Part shown: positions 19,495-51,149 of the stretch, piece after piece
Numbering within the stretch: the stretch's first letter is position 1
Layout of the letters: every line of letters begins with the position of its first letter
Assembly (NCBI GenBank): GCA_029948255.1
Contig: JALIZF010001826.1
Span: 372,001-436,000, forward strand
Length of the DNA stretch: 64,000 nucleotides
Source: Telmatactis stephensoni
Taxonomy: Eukaryota > Cnidaria > Anthozoa > Actiniaria > Isophelliidae
Reading direction: 5' to 3'
The notes under the pieces: model-generated
The model's database searches: none
What the model was told of the DNA's origin: nothing
What the model saw: only the letters and a program-made list of their open reading frames with translations
Translations under genes and position numbers: made by a program

Positions 19495-21385
19495 AATGTT
19501 GGTTTTGTTTTCATTTTGTTTTGTTTGTTTTGTTTTGTTTTGTTTTTATTTCTCGTTTACAGTATTTCATTATGATTACAATTAATAACTAGTTTTAAAG
19601 AAATATATATAAATATAGAAATACAAAATTTGACCAATAAACATATAAACATATAGAAATATAATTAAGTGACATTGAGAAAGGAGGCTAAATAAACTTT
19701 CGTTTTCAAGTTAGCCCCCTGCCTTTTTGTGTTAATATTTAATGCAGGTGAAGGATCATGACACAAATAGACAAAAAGACGGACACATATACACAAACAT
19801 AAACACAAGGACGATGAAAAGGACATTCTTATATCATGAACAATTATAGCTAAGATATATTTTGTGGTTAATTAATTAGTATGAATCAAGTAGGAACAAT
19901 TACAGTCGTTGTTCGGAAAGAAGATACTCTTTCAATTGTTTCCTGAAGGACCTAATATTTGAGGATTTAAGGTAGACTGGGAGGTCTTTCCAGAGATCAA
20001 TTGCCACAAACGAGATAGCTTGTTTGCCTGTATTTGTTCTAACTTTTGATTTATAAAGATTTTGTTTACTTGCATATCTCGTATTGTAATTGTGGACATT
20101 GTTGGCATATTTAAACATATTGTCAAAGATGCTTGGTAAAATCCCACAATGCCACGAGTGCATAAATTGTAAGACATGCAAGCGATATACATTGTAAACT
20201 GAAAGTATACTTAGTAGGTTCAATAGAGGTCTGGCACTTGTCGTTTCTTCTCCATAAAGCGTGGCAAAGAATATTAATCTAATAATATGATTTTGCTTTA
20301 CCTGAATTTTTTGAAGGTGGCATTTGTATGTACTACCCCACGCTATAATAGCGTATGATATGTACGGATAAATCAAGTTATAGTACAATTCTTTTAGTTG
20401 CTTTAGAGAAACGTAATGTCTCAACTTGGATATGATCCCGGTGTTACGCGAAATTTGAGTGCAAATATATGAAATATGATATTTCCATGACATGGAATCA
20501 TCTATCGTGACGCCTAGATATTTAATGTGATTTTTCCTTTCTAATGAGTAGGAGGTTCCATCTACACTTCTAAGTTTGATATTGATATCTGCGTCTTTTT
20601 TCCTTGCGGACTTGACAATCATGAAGTTGGTTTTAGTCAAGTTTATGGATAGTTTGTTAGCATCACACCATGTCTTAACCTTTTCCAGTTCGGTATTCAT
20701 TTTTTTTTCCAGAGAATTAAGGTTATTTGAAGAAGCGAAAACGTTGGTGTCGTCAGCAAAAATTTTGAAGCTTAGTTCTTTTGAGCAATTAGGGAGGTCA
20801 TTTATGTATATCAGAAATAAAAGCGGGCCAAGTGTACTCCCCTGGGGAACTCCGCATTTTATTGATTGAAACTCGGATTCCACATTTCCAACTGAGACAT
20901 ATTGCTTTCTATTTGAAAGATAGTTTTCAAACCATTCTAGTGGTAGCCCTCGGATTCCATATGCCTGCATTTTTTAAGCAATATTTGATGATTAACTGAG
21001 TCGAAGGCCTTCGAAAAATCTAGAAACACACCGCAAGTATACAGGTTGTTGTCTATAGCTTTTTTAAGATTGTCTGTGATTTCTGCGATGGCTAGAGCTG
21101 TTGAGCGTCCTTTACGAAAACCAAACTGGAATTCGTAGAGGATCTTATGTTTTTCGATATAGTTTGTGAGTTGCTTGTAAACTAATTTTTCAAATATCTG
21201 AGTAAAAGTAGATAAAGTAGAGATAGGTCGATAATTGGCGGGGTCGGTAGAGTCTCCACCCTTATCAATAGGGGTTACTTTAGATACCTTTAAAATATCG
21301 GGGACGACTCCCTGGAGCAAAGACTGGTTAAAAATTTGGGACAGGGGCTGGCTTATATAGTCACTTGCAAGAGAAATGCACATAG
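19495..21385 (-). mobile_element. CR1/L2-like non-LTR retrotransposon, 5'-truncated
   Basis: Reverse transcriptase on the minus strand (stop at 19900), a 3' region of about 350 bp, and an A-rich tail in element orientation (TTTTGTTTTGTTTG on the plus strand, 19500-19552) define the insertion. The endonuclease part is missing: similarity begins near 21385, a normal result of 5' truncation during target-primed integration. Confidence 0.65.
19900..21383 (-). pseudogene. LINE reverse transcriptase, one frameshift
   Basis: From 21383: CISLASDYISQPLSQIFNQSL, DPANYRPISTLSTFTQIFEK, FGFRKGRSTALAI and FLDFSKAFDSVNH (RT motif with catalytic Asp), then a shift in an A-run near 20965-20975, then GIRGLPLEWFENYLSNRKQYV, GVPQGSTLGPLLFLIYINDL and IFADDTNVFA (FADD catalytic box), and the C-terminal LKELYYNLIYPYISYAI and NVHNYNTRYASKQNLY blocks to the stop at 19900. 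Only one frameshift is visible, so the copy is fairly young. Confidence 0.85.
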
Positions 21386-22139: not shown

Positions 22140-23565
22140 ATGCCGAGTCACTGTTGCAACTTTGTTGTAACAAAGACGACCGTTGTGTGCTCTCGACATT
22201 TCAGGGAAAATGACATCAAAAGATCTCTGGCAGGGAAAAATCTCTTTGAAAGTGGCGCCATACCATTAGTGTTTCCATGGATTCGCACCTCGCCAAGAAA
22301 GAGAAAGTTACCCAAGGAAAGACTTTTCATCGATAAAAATCTTACTGATCATCCCGAAAGTAATGATTTAGATGAAATTGTTGTAGTGGAGGAAGCACAA
22401 GAAGTATTAGAAAAAGTTATAGAAGCGAAAAGTGTAGATGTTGCCACCCAGACTGATCTGTCCGAACACGAGGTGTATCTGTCGGAAGTTGCTATAAAAT
22501 ATTCCAACCAAATAAAAACACTCGAGATACAAATAGAAGAGTTAAAGCTTCAGGAGAAACATGCAGAACTCGGGTATCAGTCGCTTCAAAGTAGGCTCTT
22601 TACTCTTGACTCAATAAAAGCTAAGAAATCTGACACAGCCCCTGCGTTTTATACTGGATTTCAGGGCTGGGATGCCTTCATGTCTATTTACAAATATCTT
22701 GATCCAGGAGAAAGAGGAGAAAATATTAATTTCTGGCTATCTGGAAATACTGATACTTCTGCTACCTACAATGACGATGATGATGAATCTGAAGAAGTGA
22801 ATTTAAGCAAGAAAGGCAGAGCAAGAACTCTAAAACCTGTTGAAGAGTACTTCTTGACTATGTGCAGATTAAGACAATGCTTCCATGAAGAACACCTTGC
22901 TCACTTGTTTAATATTTCACGGGCTACAGTGAGCAGGATATTCATAACATGGATCAACTTTGTGTATCTTAAGCTGGGTACAATAAATATATGGCCATCG
23001 AGAAAGGCTGTTAATATAGCAATGCCAGAAGCTTTCAAGGAGAAGTACAAGTCTACCAGAATTATAATAGACTGCACTGAAGTTAAATGTCAAATGCCAA
23101 GTAGTTTGCATTTGAACGGAGAACTCTTCAGTAGCTATAAACACCACACTACTTTGAAAGGACTAGTAGGCATTTCTCCTGGGGGAGCTATAACATTTAT
23201 TAGTCAGTTATACACTGGCAGTATTTCTGATAGAGAAATTGTGGAGAGAAGTGGACTTCTGGACCTACCTTTCGAGGAAAATGATTCTGTGAATGGCTGA
23301 CAAAGGTTTTACGATACAGGATCTACTGCCATTAGGGGTGCAACTAAACCTACCCCCTTTTCTGGGAGGTTCAAGCCAAATGTCTGCAGAAAATGTTGTA
23401 AAGACCCAAGAAATTGCAAGCCTCAGAATACACATTGAACGAGCAATTAATAAGATAAAGAATTTTCACATTTCGGACAGAGTCATTCCACTTCACCAGT
23501 TTGGAATCATAAATCAAATGTGTGGCATTTTGTGCAATGCCCAGCCAAATATAATATCAGCTTGA
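22140..23565 (+). pseudogene. THAP-domain DDE transposase of the ISL2EU-type element
   Basis: Starts MPSHCC; the THAP domain lacks about 45 residues in its middle and resumes at VTKTTVVCSRHFRENDI, then GAIPLVFPW. A coiled-coil (SNQIKTLEIQIEELKLQEKH) follows, then LRQCFHEEHLAHLFNISRATVSRIF (helix-turn-helix), and the DDE_Tnp_4 catalytic part: IIIDCTEVKC (first Asp), TGSISDREI, MADKGFTIQDLL (second Asp) and HIERAINKIKNF (Glu). A one-base insertion at about 23292 shifts the frame between SDREI and ADKGF. All catalytic residues are present, but the THAP deletion and the frameshift disable it. The transposase would act in the nucleus on the element ends. Confidence 0.8.
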
Positions 23566-25374: not shown

Positions 25375-27452
25375 TTAAGAGACAGATGTTTCAGTGGTTA
25401 TTTTACATAGCTCAACTGCTGCTACTTTAATAAAGTTTGTAAAATAATATGCAATGAGTTTGTCTTTGAGTTCATTCCAATACTCAGAATCAAAAGGGAT
25501 CCTTTGAATATAGATACCTACATTAGTGTATACAATGAAATCGCACCACTTTGCTCCTGTTATTCCCATCCGTCCTTGAACTTGTGCATAATATGCATGT
25601 GACTTCTTCAAGCAACAGTCTGTGTCACTTGTCTTTTCCATGAAGAAAGAAGGATCGGAGCAAGCATCCAAGGGAGTAACATGAAATTTGGTATATGGAC
25701 ATTTCACCTCAGCAAGGCCAAAATGGTCATTGCATCCAGGGTCTAACACTCGTGCATCTGGAGAAGCACCAAGAATGGGATGTTCGTTGCATACCACGAA
25801 ACCACAAGGCAAAACTTGGACGGGTGAATTCCTGTTGAACATAAACTTGTGATACTGTGTCAATGCTATGTAATGGGTTGAAACTTTTTCCCATGGTTTG
25901 TGTAACTTGATGAAAATGCCTTGGGATTTATTAGTGACTTTGCAAATGTGTCGTGGTTTCTTTGCCTTTCAACAATTAATTGAAATTGAGATGCAGTAAA
26001 TCTCAGCTTACGTTCATCTTTCCACTTTTCACAGTCTGCCTGTTTTCTTGTCTCACATTCAATTATGTTTATGTCATTTTCAGTTATTTTGAGTTTATTA
26101 ATTACAGCTAGTTCATCATCAGACAGGTTTCCTGGAACAACCATTTCATGGCTATTCTAATTCCTCAAAGGGAACCTAGGAAATGTAAGTTCACTTAGTT
26201 GATTTGGAACTAAAAGTCTTGGAATGCAGTCAATGTTAGCCATAGCCTTGAAGTTAGATTCCGTGAATCCAACCTGATATGATAAGTATGATCCAACTTG
26301 GCATTTGCCAAATTTTGTCTCAACTGTTGGCTTTGCTTTGTCATCACCATCTTTAAGCATTTGTGCAAAGCCCATATTTGCGTCTATTGCTGCCATCTTT
26401 TTTTTTAAAGTTCTGTTCATCACTGTTGCTATGAGTGACCTTCATTCTGGCTTCGTATAAAAGATATTTCACACCAGATCTGGCCCTTTCTTCGTCGAGT
26501 TTTGTTTTGTTCACAACTATTTCCATAACTGGTTCTGGACCAATATTTGCACCCCCTCCTTTCCTGTGCCATTGTTGCAACTTCGATGTGCAAGCCAGGG
26601 TCGCATGTTGGTCAGACTCTGCAGAAAGATCTTCAGTAGATTTACAGGCAAAGAGGGTGAACTTGCACAGTTTGAACATCAAGGCTAATATATGATTACA
26701 GTAGCCAACTTTTCCTGCTACACATGTACAGTGTCCAAATTCCACTTCTGCAGATATAATGCATAAAGCAATCTTAGGAATATGAGGGGGGGTCGCTCTT
26801 TCTGTAGCTGTGACAACACTTGGCTTTCACGTAAAAATATCTCTGGTCATGTGCACAACGGATTGCTTTGAGATATTCATCTTCCAAGAATGTTTTCACT
26901 TTTCTAAGTCCAGTTGGTATGGAATGGAATGGTGATCTCTATTTGCTATATTCTTTCCAGAATTCTTTATGTGATTGTCCATGTGCGCTTTTGAAAACAA
27001 AGGCATTTTTTCGAGAGATGCGGACCAAGCTGAAACATTGTCCTCGTCAGGAAACTTCACACGTTCTTTCTCTTTGGCGAGTTTGTTTGATTCTTTGACT
27101 TGATTTTCATGTTCCTTTCTTCGACTATATACTCTGTGCGGATCTGGATCTACAATATCTTTTTCTCGACCAGTTCTAATGTACTCGTTCACCCTATTGA
27201 GTAAAAAACAACAAAATGTTATTCACAAAAGAATCGTTTAACTTGGCATAGTCTTTCGAACAGCTTATCGTACCTTTTCACCAACTGAGCTTTTGTTTTA
27301 AGTCCTTTCCCGTTGTTTCCACGGCACTTCAGCCAAAATAATAATTCTTGATTTTTTAATTCTTCTGGTTTACGGCCAGAAAGGGACAATTCTGGAATAT
27401 CATATTCGGAAAGACCAATCGAATTCGAACTACACTCCATATTGGACGCCAT
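25375..27452 (-). pseudogene. SWIM zinc-finger / YqaJ-type nuclease of the ISL2EU-type element
   Basis: Exon 1 (27274-27452) starts MASNMECSS and holds a SAP-like stretch ELKNQELLFWLKCRG; donor AAAAG^GTACGA. Exon 2 starts at 27193 (acceptor TTTTTACTCAATAG). A 5-bp direct duplication (TTCCA, about 26925) shifts the frame before GLRKVKTFLEDEYLKAI. Then the SWIM motif CTCVAGKVGYCNHILALM (near 26730), a second shift near 26400-26450, a stop at 26157, and the YqaJ nuclease: ILGASPDARVLD (Asp), GLAEVKCPY (E-x-K) and YYAQVQGRMGITGAKWCDF (QxQ box), ending at 25375. YqaJ proteins are PD-(D/E)XK exonuclease-like enzymes. The gene is broken at least three times, yet the nuclease residues persist. Confidence 0.8.
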
Positions 27453-28382: not shown

Positions 28383-28669
28383 ATCGAACAACTTTAATCC
28401 CTTCACGTCAGAGTGAAACGACTGCACTTTTTTTAGCTTTATATACAAAAACCTTTGTATTTTTGTTTTGCTTTCTTCAAAAATCATTTGATTCATGCAA
28501 TAAATTGAAAACAGTATATCACTTGATTAACTTCCAAAAATCGAAGTTAGAAAATTTTGGCAGTTGTTTTAGCTCATGATCATTACTTTTTCATATTTGG
28601 TGGCTCCTAAATGAGCCATTTTTTTGAAGCCGTTATGTTGATGGTAGTTGCGGTTCTTAAATGTTAGTG

Positions 28670-28838
28670 TGAGCGACTAAAGTGTTCCTGTCTGTTAAAC
28701 ATGTGTACCAAAAGATCAGCTTCTGTTGGTTTTGATTTGTTGCAATACTGACAATGTATGGGCTTCTCTTCAGCTTTATTCTGTGTACACATATCATGTG
28801 ATGCCCCAAGTGTTTTGATAACAACAGTCTTGATCCAT
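28670..28838 (-). CDS. Possible zinc-finger exon
   Basis: A short minus frame reads WIKTVVIKTLGASHDMC and then CQYCNKSKPTEADLLVH..FSRSH (C-x2-C-x12-H-x8-H, a C2H2-like finger) to a stop. It is preceded by a weak acceptor (GTATAAAG). It may be the last exon of an unidentified gene. Low certainty. Confidence 0.3.
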
Positions 28839-39958: not shown

Positions 39959-41290
39959 GAGGAAGTAATATTTTTGAAGATCTTCTTTGAGTTGTCTCCA
40001 AAACTGAGGCTTGAATGGAATTCGCTGAACATAGAGTCCATTGTTCGTGTAAACTATGAAATCACACCACTTTACACCTGTCACTCCCACCTGTCCCTGA
40101 ACTTTAAAGTGGTATGGGTGGTTTTCTTTCAAAGTGCATTCTGTCACTTGTTTTACTCATTGAAAAACCAGAGTCAGAGCAAGCCTCCATAGGTGATACA
40201 TTGAAGTGCTTGTAAGGGCATTTTACTTCGACAAGACCAAAATGATCAGCACAGCCTGAATCGATTACCTTGGCATCAAGTGAGGCACCAAAAATTGGAA
40301 ATGTCTTTGATACAACAAATCCACTCCTAAATACCTTTACTGGTGTTCCTCTGTGGTACATAAACTTCTCATACTCTTGGAGAGCTATAGGTTCATATTT
40401 GTGTCCATGATCTGAATAGCGTTTTGAAATTTCTGGTGGATTCATCAGTTTAGCAGCAAAAGTGTTGTGATTTTTTTTTTGTTTTGCTATCACATGTGAA
40501 GCAGTGAATCTATAGTTTTGTTCAGTTTTCCAACTCTTGGAATTTGCTTGCTGTCTTGTTTCAACTTCAACACTGTTAATTTTGTCCTTGTCTAGCTTAA
40601 GTGATTCAGCAAATGCTTTTCCATTTTTATTCACATGGTAAGCACACTTTGATTGTTATTGGGAAGACGGACAACAGAGTCAAGGTTTGCCAAGGCTTTA
40701 AAATTTGCCTATGTAAGAGCAACTTGGTAAGATAGGAATGATCCCACCTGACTTTTTCCAAGGGCCATATGAGCCAAACCTAAATTGGAGTCAAGCTTTT
40801 GAAGTCCTTCTTTAAAATGACACCTGATCCTGTTTTTGTTTCATTGAGTTTTGTTTTGTTTACTTCAACTTCCATGACTGGCTGTGGTGCAATGTTCGAG
40901 CCACCACCTTTCTTGTGCCACTTCTGAAGTTGTGACATGCAAGCCACATCCCTTTCGTGGTCTTCAAATGAATCTGTTGTCTTTGTGCAGAAATACAGGG
41001 AGAATTTACAGAGTTTAAACATAAGGGCCAGCACATGGTTACAATAGCCAACTGTTCCAGCGACACACAAACTAAAAGCACTTTACACCTCTCCAGATAT
41101 AATACACAACCAGGCAACCTTTAGATTGTGTGGTGGGTCGTTCTTTTTGAAGCTGTGGCAGCACTTCGCGATAACGTAGAAATATTTTTGATCACTTGTG
41201 CACTGTATATCCTCCAGGTATTCATCGTCTAGAAATCTTTTTGCTTTTCGGAGTCCAGTAGGTAAGTGTCATTGTGAATGCCCAAGTAAA
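39930..41290 (-). pseudogene. YqaJ nuclease with SWIM finger, decayed (copy 2)
   Basis: In minus orientation: GLRKAKRFLDDEYLEDIQC (about 41265), CVAGTVGYCNHVLALMFKL (SWIM, near 41060), KWHKKGGGSNIAPQPVMEV, then FGASLDAKVIDSG (near 40290; the usual P before D is replaced by L), GLVEVKCPYKHF (E-x-K, 40225) and KVQGQVGVTGVKWCDFIVYT (40100), ending in LKEDLQKYYFLSFKK near 39950. Frames change at about 40790 and 40140. Each domain matches copy 1 at 25.4-26.9 kb in order. Confidence 0.75.
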
Positions 41291-42194: not shown

Positions 42195-42415
42195 TTTTGT
42201 CTTTTACCACCTTGTGCAAAACTACGCTTCCTGCCAAACTAACGTCTCGATTGGGAATTTGGTCAATAGGCTACCAAAAATCTAGACAGAGGCGGAGTTT
42301 CTATACAATGTTTGTACACTTTGCTGGCTTCCCAGTAGCCTATTGACCAAATCCCAATTGAGACTTTAGTCTGGCTGGACGCACAATTATGCACACGGTG
42401 GTAAGTAAGGGTTAA
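42195..42415. mobile_element. Foldback (MITE-like) element, arms about 75 bp
   Basis: Inner arms 42244-42274 and 42335-42364 are nearly identical in inverse (ATTTGGTCAATAGGCTAC and inverse), and the similarity extends outward with mismatches to TACCACC-TGTGCA on both sides, giving arms of about 75 bp around a 60-bp loop. Confidence 0.75.
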
Positions 42416-44758: not shown

Positions 44759-44956
44759 AGCATTGATAAAAGAAAAGATGGACAAAAAAGAAAAAAATGC
44801 TCATTGAACTGTTAATGATTTTTATTAAATGTACAAAAAATAAGTTACATTTTTTGTAAAGGTTATATATGTAAAGTTTATTAAAGTTTTTGGTTTGAAA
44901 AAATAAATGTTTCATGCTGTTTTTACAATAGGTTTTTAAGGATACACGGGACACAA

Positions 44957-46453: not shown

Positions 46454-47121
46454 CATTGGTCATGTCCAAATGACAAATTGCCAATTGGTCATGACCATTG
46501 GTCAATGGGGACTGTATTGGACATGTTTGCGACTTCTGACAATCTGGAATGTGTGATTACAGAAACAAATCTATAGCTTCCCCCCGCCACAAGGGGGTTG
46601 CAATTTCCAAGGGTGTGTCAATTATTGACAAAAACGCACAAGCTCTCAGAGGGTCGAATAACCACAGGCACCTGAAAAAAATTAAAATACCAGGGGCATC
46701 TCCAATGAAAATCTCTCTATGGAAGAAAGGATGAATACTTTTTTTTGGAATCACTATATCAACAACAAACTTCAATAACTCCTTACTCATTGGTCATGTC
46801 CAAATGACAAATTGCCAATTGGTCATGACCATTGGTCAATGGGGACTGTATTGGACATGTTTGCGACTTCTGACAATCTGGAATGTGTGATTACAGAAAC
46901 AAATCTATAGCTCCCCCCCCCCCACAAGGGGGTTGCAATTTCCAAGGGTGTGTCAATTATTGACAAAAACGCACAAGCTCTCAGAGGGTCGAATAACCAC
47001 AGGCACCTGAAAAAAATTAAAATACCAGGGGCATCTCCAATGAAAATCTCTCTATGGAAGAAAGGATGAATACTTTTTTTTGGAATCACTATATCAACAA
47101 CAAACTTCAATAACTCCTTAC
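46454..47121. repeat. 334-bp tandem duplication, nearly identical
   Basis: Unit 1 46454-46787 and unit 2 46788-47121 differ by only a few bases (mainly a C-run: CCCCCCGCC against a longer C-run near 46911). The unit begins with a nest of CATTGGTCATG-like palindromes. The identity implies a very recent event or an assembly artefact. Confidence 0.9.
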
Positions 47122-47206
47122 TCAAAGTTTTGGAATCTCTGCTCACAGCACTTCACTTTCTATTAGAAACTGCTACTAAATAATATTTACAAGGGCCTTA
47201 GGAATA

Positions 47207-47446
47207 CACAATGTAAACTAAACCAGATAAATTTTTGTCAAACCATCGATTTTTACAGCCAAATTGAGCTGTATTTTCACGCTATAAAATCTAGAGCGCG
47301 AGCGATAACATTCCAATTTCCGCGTCATTGCAAATGGAGATGTTATTGCTCTCGCTCTAGATTTATATGGCATGAAAATACAGCTCAGTTTGGCTGTAAA
47401 AAATCGTTGGTTTGACAAAAATTTATCTGGTTCCGTTTACATTGTG
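47207..47446. mobile_element. 240-bp foldback MITE with TA duplication
   Basis: Arms of about 108 bp, starting CACAATGTAAAC and ending GTTTACATTGTG, are inverse copies around a loop of about 25 bp. TA flanks both ends (47205-47206, 47447-47448), as for Tc1/mariner-type MITEs. No coding capacity. Confidence 0.8.
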
Positions 47447-47539
47447 TATTTATTGTAATTTGTCTTTCTTTTCTGCAATGCCATTTATGTAACATGGAAT
47501 GCAAATAAATGAATTTTGATTCACTGATTACCCATCTTT

Positions 47540-47740
47540 ACCAAATGCGCAGATGTGCAAAAATGCCAAAAAAACATGGGCAGATGTTGCCCGACCCACC
47601 CAAAATGGCGTGCGCAGATGATGCCCGACCCAGCCAATACAGCGTGCGCATGCACAAATGTGCAACAATGCCAATAAACCTGCACATATGTTGCCCGACC
47701 CACCAAAAACAGCATGCGCATGCGCTATTGTACCCAGGTT
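47540..47740. repeat. Degenerate GC-rich tandem repeats
   Basis: TTGCCCGACCCACC or ATGCCCGACCCAGCC followed by AGCGTGCGCA-like blocks recurs three times at about 60-100 bp spacing, with AAATGCCAA-type interludes. Overlapping frames on both strands here are by-products. Confidence 0.65.
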
Positions 47741-48035
47741 CACGCTATGGTTTCCAGATTCGCACTATGGTCCTAGGTTAGCTATTTCAAGAAAGTTTGT
47801 CGTTAAAAGCCCTACGCGCCCAGACCAAAAAGGAGCATGGGAGGTAAAAATATTCCGTTATTTGTGACCTTTCTCAGTTTTCAAAATATATTTTTCTGCA
47901 GAATTTCATGATACAAGAATCTAAAAACATGCCACACAAAAAGTTAAACCAGTGTCTTGTTTCTTACATATTCGACATCTACAGTCTCGACCGCGGAATA
48001 AGAGAGCATGAGTCATGACTTTATCGTATGTGGTT

Positions 48036-48051
48036 GGCTCTGAAAAGAGCC
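48036..48051 (-). terminator. Histone-type mRNA 3' stem-loop
   Basis: Minus strand reads GGCTCTTTTCAGAGCC: 6-bp stem and TTTC loop, the exact metazoan replication-dependent histone 3' consensus, followed by AACCACA. It begins 29 nt after the stop codon of the chromodomain reading frame, the usual spacing in histone genes, and no histone coding sequence lies beside it. Seen directly; that it is used for 3'-end formation is inference. Confidence 0.75.
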
Positions 48052-48080
48052 GTTGTTCGATCCTGAGCTCATCGATCAGT

Positions 48081-48621
48081 TCAGCGTATTTTCTTGGTGT
48101 GATGCCTATATCGATGTGTTATATATGACTCGGTAATGTCATATTTCTTGCCACAACACTGCATCTCGAAACCTGGATGCTGTTTAAAAAAAGCCAGCAC
48201 ATAGTTCCTCCATGAGAAATCATTTGTATCCTTCTTGTCGAACTGTCCAATTTTTGTTCTCGCTTTCTCTGAGAATTGTTTCGAATTCTCTTCCCGCTTG
48301 CTGATCTCCTCGACTAACTTGTCTTGGAGACTGGTTGCATCCGTGGTCTTCTTCTGTCTTCTTGTGTCCTCCTCCATAGCACTCGCCGCTGACTGTCGTC
48401 AGACTTCTCGTCAGCTTCCTCTTCTTCCGGCGGTTGTCGAAGGCTGCTACCATCTCTGGTGGCAAGTGTTTGACTGGTTCCCAAGTGTTGTCATCTTCAG
48501 TATATCCAACCCATGAAACGAGCATCTCTACTCTTCCTTTTCTCTTTCTTTTCTTTAGGATCTCTTTGACGTAAAATATTCCTTGTAGTATTTCTGGCTC
48601 TGGCGCCTTCCGTTTTGACAT
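48081..48621 (-). CDS. Intronless chromodomain protein with one frame shift
   Basis: Starts MSKRKAPEPEILQGIF at 48621. The chromodomain is YVKEILKKRKRKGRVEMLVS then WVGYTEDDNTWEPVKHLP, with the aromatic-cage positions Y, W and W present, so methyl-lysine binding is plausible. After RRKKRKLTRS the frame has to change once (between about 48411 and 48365) to reach MEEDTRRQKKTTDATSL, a charged coiled-coil part, and the end FSWRNYVLAFFKQHPGFEM..CCGKKYDITESYITHRYRHH, stop at 48081. The shift is either a mutation, an assembly error or a programmed shift. No introns; a histone stem-loop lies 29 nt downstream. The chromodomain may derive from a retroelement or Polinton integrase. Confidence 0.55.
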
Positions 48622-48649
48622 CTTGGCGGTTGTGATTAAACGGCGTCCG

Positions 48650-48794
48650 TCCCTGCCCTTTTAACCACTCCTGCGGATCGGAATCAATGCGTTTTGATTG
48701 GTTGTTCACAAGAGCCAATCAAAAGGCGAGATTAATCTACGTGAACAAAGGGTAATTGGCTTCTAATTGGCTCTCGTGAACAACCAATCAAAAC
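48650..48794. promoter_or_regulatory. CCAAT-rich inverted-repeat promoter of the chromodomain gene
   Basis: A 26-bp inverted repeat (48691-48716 and 48769-48794, one mismatch), with GATTGG/CCAATC in each arm, plus two more ATTGG boxes between the arms, stands 70-170 bp upstream of the start codon. A TATA-like TTAAAAGG (minus strand) lies about 40 bp before the ATG. The layout is like compact, possibly bidirectional, histone promoters; no gene was found on the plus side. Confidence 0.5.
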
Positions 48795-49159
48795 TGGAGG
48801 GATGATGTGAAGAAAAAAATATCAGAAGTTTTATGCTAACTTTTATCAATTTTGATCATTTTTTGTGATAGGATGACCTTGTATTTTGAAACGTGAAACA
48901 ACGTGCAAAATTCTGCACGCTTCAAGGATGAACGCAAAAATAAATCCTTACAGGGAAATATCGGGTTTTAAGTTAGTCGAGAAACACCTTTTTTTCAATT
49001 AACAAATGTTAAAATACAGTTTTTCGGTTGTAATGTTTACCGGTCAACATTATAATGTTTCCCGTTGCCAGTAGCAACCTCGAGACACTGACATTTCTTC
49101 ACGCGCGCGCGCCACTATTTCAACCAATCAGAGCACGAGTTGACATCTGGTATATAACA
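48795..49159. other. No gene supported
   Basis: AT-rich, with a CG-dinucleotide-rich run (CACGCGCGCGCGCC) at 49101-49114 and a CCAATCAGAG box at 49124 just before the RecQ-like fragment. Confidence 0.5.
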
Positions 49160-49390
49160 ATGCTAGTTATATCTCCTCTACTAGTGCTGATGGAAGATCA
49201 AGTAAGCTTTTTATTGAAGCACAATGTTACAGCGGCAAATGTTTCTGCTGAACAGGATGAAAAAGTGCTTAGAAACATCGAACTTGGCAAATATAGACTT
49301 GTTTAACCTGTCTCCGGAGTCGATGCTTTCAGTTGAAGCGATGGCGGTCGATGCTTCGCAGTATCGAGAAAGCTCGTTGTATTTATAGCT
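49160..49390 (+). pseudogene. RecQ-like helicase fragment
   Basis: MLVISPLLVLMEDQVSFLLK, TAANVSAEQDEKVLRNIELG and KYRLV are RecQ-type motif Ia and following sequence; after a frameshift near 49305, SPESMLSVEAMA and YRESSLYL continue. The Walker A part and the rest of the helicase are missing. It is unrelated in extent to the fragment at 58.7 kb (only motif Ia overlaps). Confidence 0.6.
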
Positions 49391-50511: not shown

Positions 50512-50953
50512 ATCACCCCTAGCCAGGAACTTCATAAATAATTTCTTTGTGAATGGCAAATCTGCTTTCTTAAATATTTCTTGATACACACATTTCCCTT
50601 TAGAGAAATTAAGCATTCAAAATTAGAAAATGCAAATGAGATGACGTCAAACCAGGAATTTGATGCCTCATTTTGTTTCAAATTTTCAAACAGGTGCATA
50701 AGGGTAAGGAGTAAATATGTCCATAGTGTGTAGTTTAGCACAGAAAACCTTTTCCAAAAGGTAAAATTGTAATAATTGCTTATAGTCATGTTTTGTATAT
50801 TTAATAATTCCTGGGTTGACGTCATCTCATTTGCATTTTTCATTTCGAATGCTTAATTTCTCTGAAGGGAAATGTATATATCACGAAATATTTAACAAGG
50901 CAGATTTTCCATTCACAAAGAAGTGATTTATGAAGTTCCTGGCTAGGGGTGAT
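50512..50953. mobile_element. Foldback element, arms about 149 bp
   Basis: Left arm 50512-50660 and right arm 50806-50953 are about 88% identical in inverse, starting ATCACCCCTAGCCAGGAACT, and contain ATGCAAATGAGATGACGTCA, i.e. an octamer next to a CRE-like TGACGTCA in each arm. Loop of 145 bp. A similar arm motif occurs at 60506 and 60654. Confidence 0.8.
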
Positions 50954-51149
50954 AAAGACTTTAACTTTCAAAAGATTAAGGTTTATTTACACAGGGCTGA
51001 TTATTTTTTTGAAATAACTCGCTTTGTAAAAAAGTTTTTAATTTGCTTTTCTTATAAAATGAAAGATTATACCCTAATTAACCTTACAGCACGTTTTCTA
51101 TAAATTAGTAATTTGAAGCAATTTTGTGTCCCGTGTATCCTTAAGGTTC
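50954..51149. other. No gene supported
   Basis: AT-rich bases ending with the inverted GGATACACGGGACACAA end at 51124-51144. Confidence 0.5.

Follow-up and report, generated by a model that had tools for sequence, protein, structure and literature searches.

Histone-type 3′-end signals beside a frame-broken chromodomain gene copy in the sea anemone Telmatactis stephensoni

According to the excerpted account of PMC5011920, the replication-dependent histone genes of Hydractinia echinata consist of a single exon with a TATA box, short UTRs and no poly(A) signal, and they carry a 16-bp 3′ stem-loop together with a purine-rich downstream element. The same excerpts place the stem-loop-bearing genes H3.3.2 and H2B.3/4 in S-phase cells and describe H3.3.1, which possesses a poly(A) signal, as replication-independent. 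Histone pre-mRNA is cut after a CA at 5 and 7 nt (ACCCA, ACCCACA), as excerpted from PMC6303110. The locus analyzed here lies in a 64-kb window, i.e. the whole stretch of 64,000 nucleotides under study. It resembles the Hydractinia genes, as far as the excerpts describe them, in its TATA-like box, its short leader, its 3′ stem-loop and the apparent lack of a poly(A) signal before that stem-loop. However, the products of the Hydractinia genes are histones or histone variants, whereas the gene presented here codes for a chromodomain protein and has a downstream element of no more than moderate purine content.

With regard to the encoded product, the closest described proteins are the CBX (Polycomb) and HP1 families, with which it shares a chromodomain with aromatic residues at three cage positions. 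In contrast to these families, no chromoshadow domain was detected, and the gene combines a helical linker and a C2H2-like C-terminal finger with a histone-type 3′ end. Rhino and Oxpecker, the Drosophila HP1 relatives, are likewise chromodomain readers among the matches listed (4u68, 4quf, 7vrf), but their C-terminal part differs; both are characterized by fast evolution and duplication, and we know of no histone-type 3′ end in either. In animals, the histone 3′ stem-loop signal is not known from messages other than those of histones, and among the literature matches listed, in which subscription papers are thinly covered, no non-histone animal gene with this stem-loop was found. We propose, with about an even chance of being right, that the locus belongs, as one copy among apparently many, to a probably anthozoan family of small chromatin-reader genes whose build follows that of replication-dependent histone genes. 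The coordinates of the features are collected in Table 1.

Table 1. Features of the chromodomain gene copy and of the second histone-type 3′ end (positions within the window).
Feature	Position	Strand or location	Basis or remark
CCAAT-bearing inverted repeat	48691-48725 / 48760-48794	upstream of gene	35-nt arms, 91% complementary, 34-nt spacer
TATA-like TTAAAA	48664-48659	minus	37 nt before ATG
ATG ORF, 133 aa	48621-48220	minus	ends 168 nt before stem-loop
Chromodomain-coding part, first frame	48409-48621	minus	Pfam Chromo E 2.8e-10; 90% identical to P0001
Acidic linker holding the frame shift	48381-48414	minus	frames and relatives (EEADDS-type repeats, variable length)
C-terminal part, other frame	48084-48395	minus	89% identical to P0001; stop TGA 48083-48081
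Histone 3′ stem-loop GGCTCTTTTCAGAGCC	48051-48036	minus	exact sequence match
Rfam Histone3 (RF00032) match	48056-48011	minus	33.2 bits, gathering 34
Cleavage region AACCACA and putative histone downstream element ACGATAAAGTCATGA	48011-48035	minus	RF00032 alignment
Second histone-type 3′ end, stem GGCTCATTTAGGAGCC, 1 mismatch	28622-28576	minus	RF00032 26.7 bits, E 0.0024

An earlier note on this DNA had reported an exact histone stem-loop, and the conserved 16 nt were indeed recovered on the minus strand, in the orientation of the gene and shortly past a stop codon. Base composition predicts 1e-5 exact matches per 64-kb window; with up to three mismatches the window contains two matches against a shuffle mean of 0.36, and 6 of 100 shuffles had at least two. 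The corresponding RF00032 match spans all 46 model positions (E 9.2e-6 when the entire window and every family are counted). A default Rfam scan at gathering scores reports neither this site, because its score falls just under the gathering value, nor the second one at 28622-28576. The stem-loop also forms when the 61 nt around it are folded computationally (z -2.1), and 8 of 200 shuffles fold equally well. The same note had placed the stem-loop 29 nt after the stop of the ORF; this distance holds for the TGA that closes the C-terminal-domain frame, but that TGA lies in a frame other than that of the ATG ORF. Judged by these features, the element qualifies as a genuine histone 3′ stem-loop, and it is known from this one copy of the chromodomain family only. 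RF00032 also matches a third place, 1753-1795, at E 0.9, which was put down to chance. Searching viral_contigs with the 16-mer yielded 11 stretches, a count that comes without a chance level.

Directly after the stem, AACCACA provides CA steps at +5 and +7, so the cleavage step about 5 nt past the stem has the spacing given in the excerpts of PMC6303110. ACGATAAAGTCATGA occupies the place of a histone downstream element and may act as one; its core is AAAG, but its richness in purines is no more than moderate. The stretch GATAAAGTCATGA, a candidate for pairing with U7 snRNA, is mostly common to the second site. From 47000 to 48700, the minus strand has neither AATAAA nor ATTAAA ahead of the stem-loop: the single AATAAA, at 47454, lies past it, and ATTAAA does not occur at all.

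The chromodomain of the intronless ORF described earlier is present (PF00385, E 2.8e-10), but the gene is not contained in one frame, since its two domains are encoded in different ones. The ATG ORF runs past the chromodomain part out of frame to 48220. Compared with its relatives, the copy carries at least one frame shift in the linker; we read two, because a short middle piece in the third frame, EEEEADEKSDDSQ, resembles the linker of the relatives. A small intron was rejected as the cause of the frame change, which takes place within about 35 nt. The relatives align to the gene without introns, and the shift of the frame is seen here in genomic sequence. Because chromodomain and C-terminal domain sit in different frames, we infer either that the copy is a pseudogene of recent origin or that the assembly is in error at this point; barring such an error, a complete protein is probably not produced. 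The gene encodes a chromodomain protein and not a histone; in agreement with the earlier statement that no histone ORF is near, none was recognized within the window (four core histones as tblastn queries; best E 1.6).

Its two parts together predict a two-domain protein, consisting of a CBX/HP1-like chromodomain and a C2H2-like C-terminal finger. The best PDB sequence match of the chromodomain is CBX4 (2k28, E 4.7e-11), and the best fold match among the Foldseek matches listed is HP1alpha (2rvl, E 6.4e-5). Each of the 50 Foldseek matches listed, out of 470, is a chromodomain or a protein containing one (CBX, HP1, Rhino, Oxpecker, CDY, MPP8); by sequence and fold, and among the matches listed, the domain is nearest to CBX4, CBX7 and HP1. 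In the alignment to CBX4, F16, W37 and Y40 stand opposite F, W and W, at positions which we take to be the methyl-lysine cage of the chromodomain. A chromoshadow domain, as expected of the HP1 family, is absent from the domains above cut-off in the window ORF, P0010 and P0011, all of which yield PF00385 only. A chromovirus integrase as the source of the chromodomain was rejected, since the best PDB sequence matches are cellular CBX/HP1 proteins and the Pfam scan lists no integrase domain for the C-terminal part. In the relatives, the chromodomain is followed by an acidic linker whose length varies and then by a C-terminal domain bearing SWRNYV, FFKQHPGF and CCGKKY...THR.RHH; the C-terminal part of the present copy is composed of a helical stretch and a C2H2-like finger (SWRNYV..FFKQHPGF..CCGKKY..ITHRYRHH). 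For this part no Pfam match lies above cut-off, and the precomputed Pfam domains of P0001-P0008 consist of PF00385 only. The finger is our own reading: in the relative P0023 the Pfam C2H2 model scores below cut-off (E 0.037), and the structure model of P0001 (mean pLDDT 70.5, pTM 0.40, 27 sequences) predicts, besides the chromodomain and a long helix, a C-terminal beta-hairpin and helix that look like a C2H2 finger.

A first search, with a read-through of the gene as query, found nine relatives among 86 candidates, the best of them 85% identical over the full length. The profile search gave 77 proteins among 2847 candidates, many of the weaker matches being HP1 or other chromodomain proteins according to their precomputed Pfam domains. 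With domain models built from nine of the 77 proteins, the C-terminal domain was recovered in 35 (domain E < 1e-3), and both domains are nearly complete, i.e. cover at least 50 of 55 model positions, in ten of the 77. Decayed copies look common: of the 35 relatives in which the C-terminal domain was recovered, 25 are incomplete. Furthermore, three cluster pairs (P0010/P0032, P0025/P0040 and P0037/P0039) each name equally long longest contigs, a sign that several copies may share a contig. On the strength of these similarities the gene belongs to a real protein family. This family appears to be multi-copy with many decayed members, although part of the incompleteness may arise from gene prediction on short contigs. 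Profile scans of viral_contigs and genome_contigs found no loci encoding relatives. In one relative, P0040, the N-terminal part of the chromodomain is joined to a DDE_3 transposase domain, a fusion that gene prediction may have made by reading across an insertion.

Upstream of the gene, a 26-bp inverted repeat had been described; the arms are in fact 35 nt long, and the claim in that form did not hold. The repeat (48691-48794, minus strand) is a putative NF-Y-type promoter array with five CCAAT motifs within 105 nt. It ties with two other clusters, both located within a tandemly repeated palindrome, as the densest of the window, and because of these equally dense clusters CCAAT density alone proves little. 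The TATA-like box of the earlier note is present, as TTAAAA. P0002-P0004, which are 66-69% identical, share the same predicted N-terminal extension, reading through the region that corresponds to the leader. Back-translated with the degenerate code, the extension of P0002 matches the leader and TATA-like box at 46 of 46 aligned positions with three 1-nt gaps, a fit reached by none of 400 random segments. The extension of these three proteins is the translated leader, and leader and TATA-like box are common to some relatives. At 49121-49300 on the plus strand, a divergent CCAAT and TATATAA (49151-49157) precede a short ORF that starts at 49190 and may have a splice donor; the chromodomain gene could have a divergent neighbor 0.5 kb upstream of it.

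The window contains a second, weaker histone-type 3′ end, 19 kb from the first and absent from the earlier note (Table 1). Its RF00032 score also lies under the gathering value, its mismatch is situated at the top of the stem, and ACCA and an AAAAAG block follow. The 28 nt after both stems are identical at 22 positions, an agreement whose score was reached by 5 of 5000 random window segments, a set that includes overlaps with the query itself, as its maximum of 148 shows. The upstream flanks, by comparison, score 13 against a random mean of 12.9 (the mean being that of the downstream comparison), and the two sites have no coding sequence in common. The pattern of stem, six bases, stem and ACCA, defined post hoc with both sites already known, occurs twice in the window and not once in 60 simulated windows; a profile of both sites found no third one at a significant level within the window. 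A short ORF with a zinc-finger-like tail (28664-28792) stops 46 nt before the second stem; this motif is one of four of its kind in the six frames of the window, and the last 42 residues of the ORF have no Pfam match. A decayed copy of the chromodomain family near this stem was considered and rejected, the best match there scoring 5.3 bits. Because 22 of the 28 downstream bases match without shared coding sequence, a common 3′-processing element, or the dispersal of one, is likely. Two histone-type 3′ ends thus lie in a window without a recognized histone ORF, and the orphan second one suggests that such ends can disperse without a histone gene.

The gene is flanked by a perfect 21-bp inverted repeat starting with TTAA (44936-44956 and 51124-51144), which spans 6.2 kb and has no further match in the window at up to three mismatches. 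The similarity of the two arms stops after 21 bp, as at the ends of TTAA-site elements. Inside this bracket no transposase was recognized, and the only other wholly internal ORF of at least 100 aa, at 50532-50843, has no Pfam match above cut-off. The surroundings are rich in transposons: ORFs at 19900-21383, 22140-23300, 25375-25842, 40104-40445 and 625-2922 comprise a reverse transcriptase, a THAP/DDE transposase, two YqaJ-like nucleases and a repeat-rich ORF with ZSWIM3_N. Among the 120 matches listed, of 663, for a THAP/DDE transposase ORF of the window, all six that bear an organism name come from anthozoans (Montipora three times; Oculina, Paramuricea and Stylophora once each), in keeping with an anthozoan origin as far as a transposon gene can show it. 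A tandem duplication of about 335 bp at 46454-47124 (pieces 96-100% identical) contains palindromic CCAATTGG units, and a long hairpin at 42238-42370, similar to Rfam MIR6135 on both strands and under gathering score, is probably an inverted-repeat element.

Several explanations can account for this arrangement. That the gene is built like a histone gene – with CCAAT array and TATA-like box, with a very short leader, without a visible intron and with a stem-loop 3′ end replacing the poly(A) signal – is favored by the combination of stem-loop, cleavage region and downstream block, by the shared leader, by the lack of an earlier poly(A) signal and by the position after the stop; we consider the chances of this build to be evenly poised. 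A random hairpin that happens to have the histone sequence is very unlikely, close to negligible: the Rfam score does lie under the gathering cut-off, but the expectation of 1e-5 exact matches per window, the downstream stretch common to the second site and the correct CA spacing all speak against it. The stem-loop could also be specific to this locus, and then of little bearing on the family, if a dispersed fragment of a histone repeat, comprising stem-loop and downstream element, landed beside a chromodomain copy. The orphan second site keeps such a capture alive: it lies 19 kb off, shares the 28-nt downstream stretch and has an unlike upstream flank, no histone ORF is recognized, and repeats and transposon ORFs are frequent in the window. 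Nevertheless, the stem-loop begins 29 nt past the stop of the C-terminal domain, in the right orientation and with no recognized histone coding remnant between, and we regard capture as unlikely.

Alternatively, the gene could be the cargo of the 6.2-kb TTAA-ended element, in which case the histone-type signals would aid the spread of the element rather than serve chromatin biology. The unique bracket and a seemingly multi-copy family with many partial copies are consistent with this; however, no transposase is recognized within the bracket, the two ends perhaps stem from separate insertions, and the element is seen as a single copy, all of which makes the cargo model quite unlikely. More weight has to be given to a recent, unexpressed pseudogene whose elements are relics. 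At least one linker frame shift relative to the relatives, two by our reading, and the 25 incomplete among 35 relatives argue for a dead copy; against it, both domain parts keep about 90% identity to P0001 and contain no internal stop, and the 3′ end is intact. We see the arguments on this question as balanced, and a dead copy is compatible with a histone-like build of the family, so that the probabilities of the two overlap. The earlier note had offered a chromodomain protein expressed in S phase, or capture of histone regulatory DNA. It is right in that histone-type 3′-processing signals adjoin a chromodomain gene of a real family, but this copy is frame-broken, and expression in S phase would suit the family or its ancestor better. 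Because the copy is broken, function is to be sought in intact family members.

Under the histone-like build, which we prefer, and provided that the stem-loop is a trait of the family, the gene would be transcribed in S phase, its stem-loop would be bound by SLBP, and the AAAG block would pair with the U7 snRNP. The transcript would be cut at a CA, 5 or 7 nt past the stem, leaving a tail-less mRNA that is synthesized and degraded alongside histone mRNAs. Through the aromatic cage F16, W37 and Y40 of its chromodomain, the protein would recognize methylated histone H3, and the C-terminal finger may hold another partner; as a result, heterochromatin readers would be supplied together with new nucleosomes. 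Replication-coupled, tail-less expression is our best inference, one that could fall either way with nearly equal probability.

Beyond this locus, multi-copy non-histone chromatin-reader genes of Anthozoa, perhaps along with further zinc-finger genes, might use the histone 3′-end machinery and form a second class of stem-loop mRNAs, a generalization that we offer tentatively and judge possible, if on balance doubtful. If it is true, the mRNAs of these chromatin readers would be tail-less and replication-coupled, and poly(A)-selected transcriptomes would easily miss such genes. The histone-only rule would be broken by a chromatin gene that carries histone-type signals without encoding a histone. 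Such a gene would give a natural test of how genes join or leave the histone 3′-end pathway, and also of whether heterochromatin readers arrive in step with new nucleosomes.
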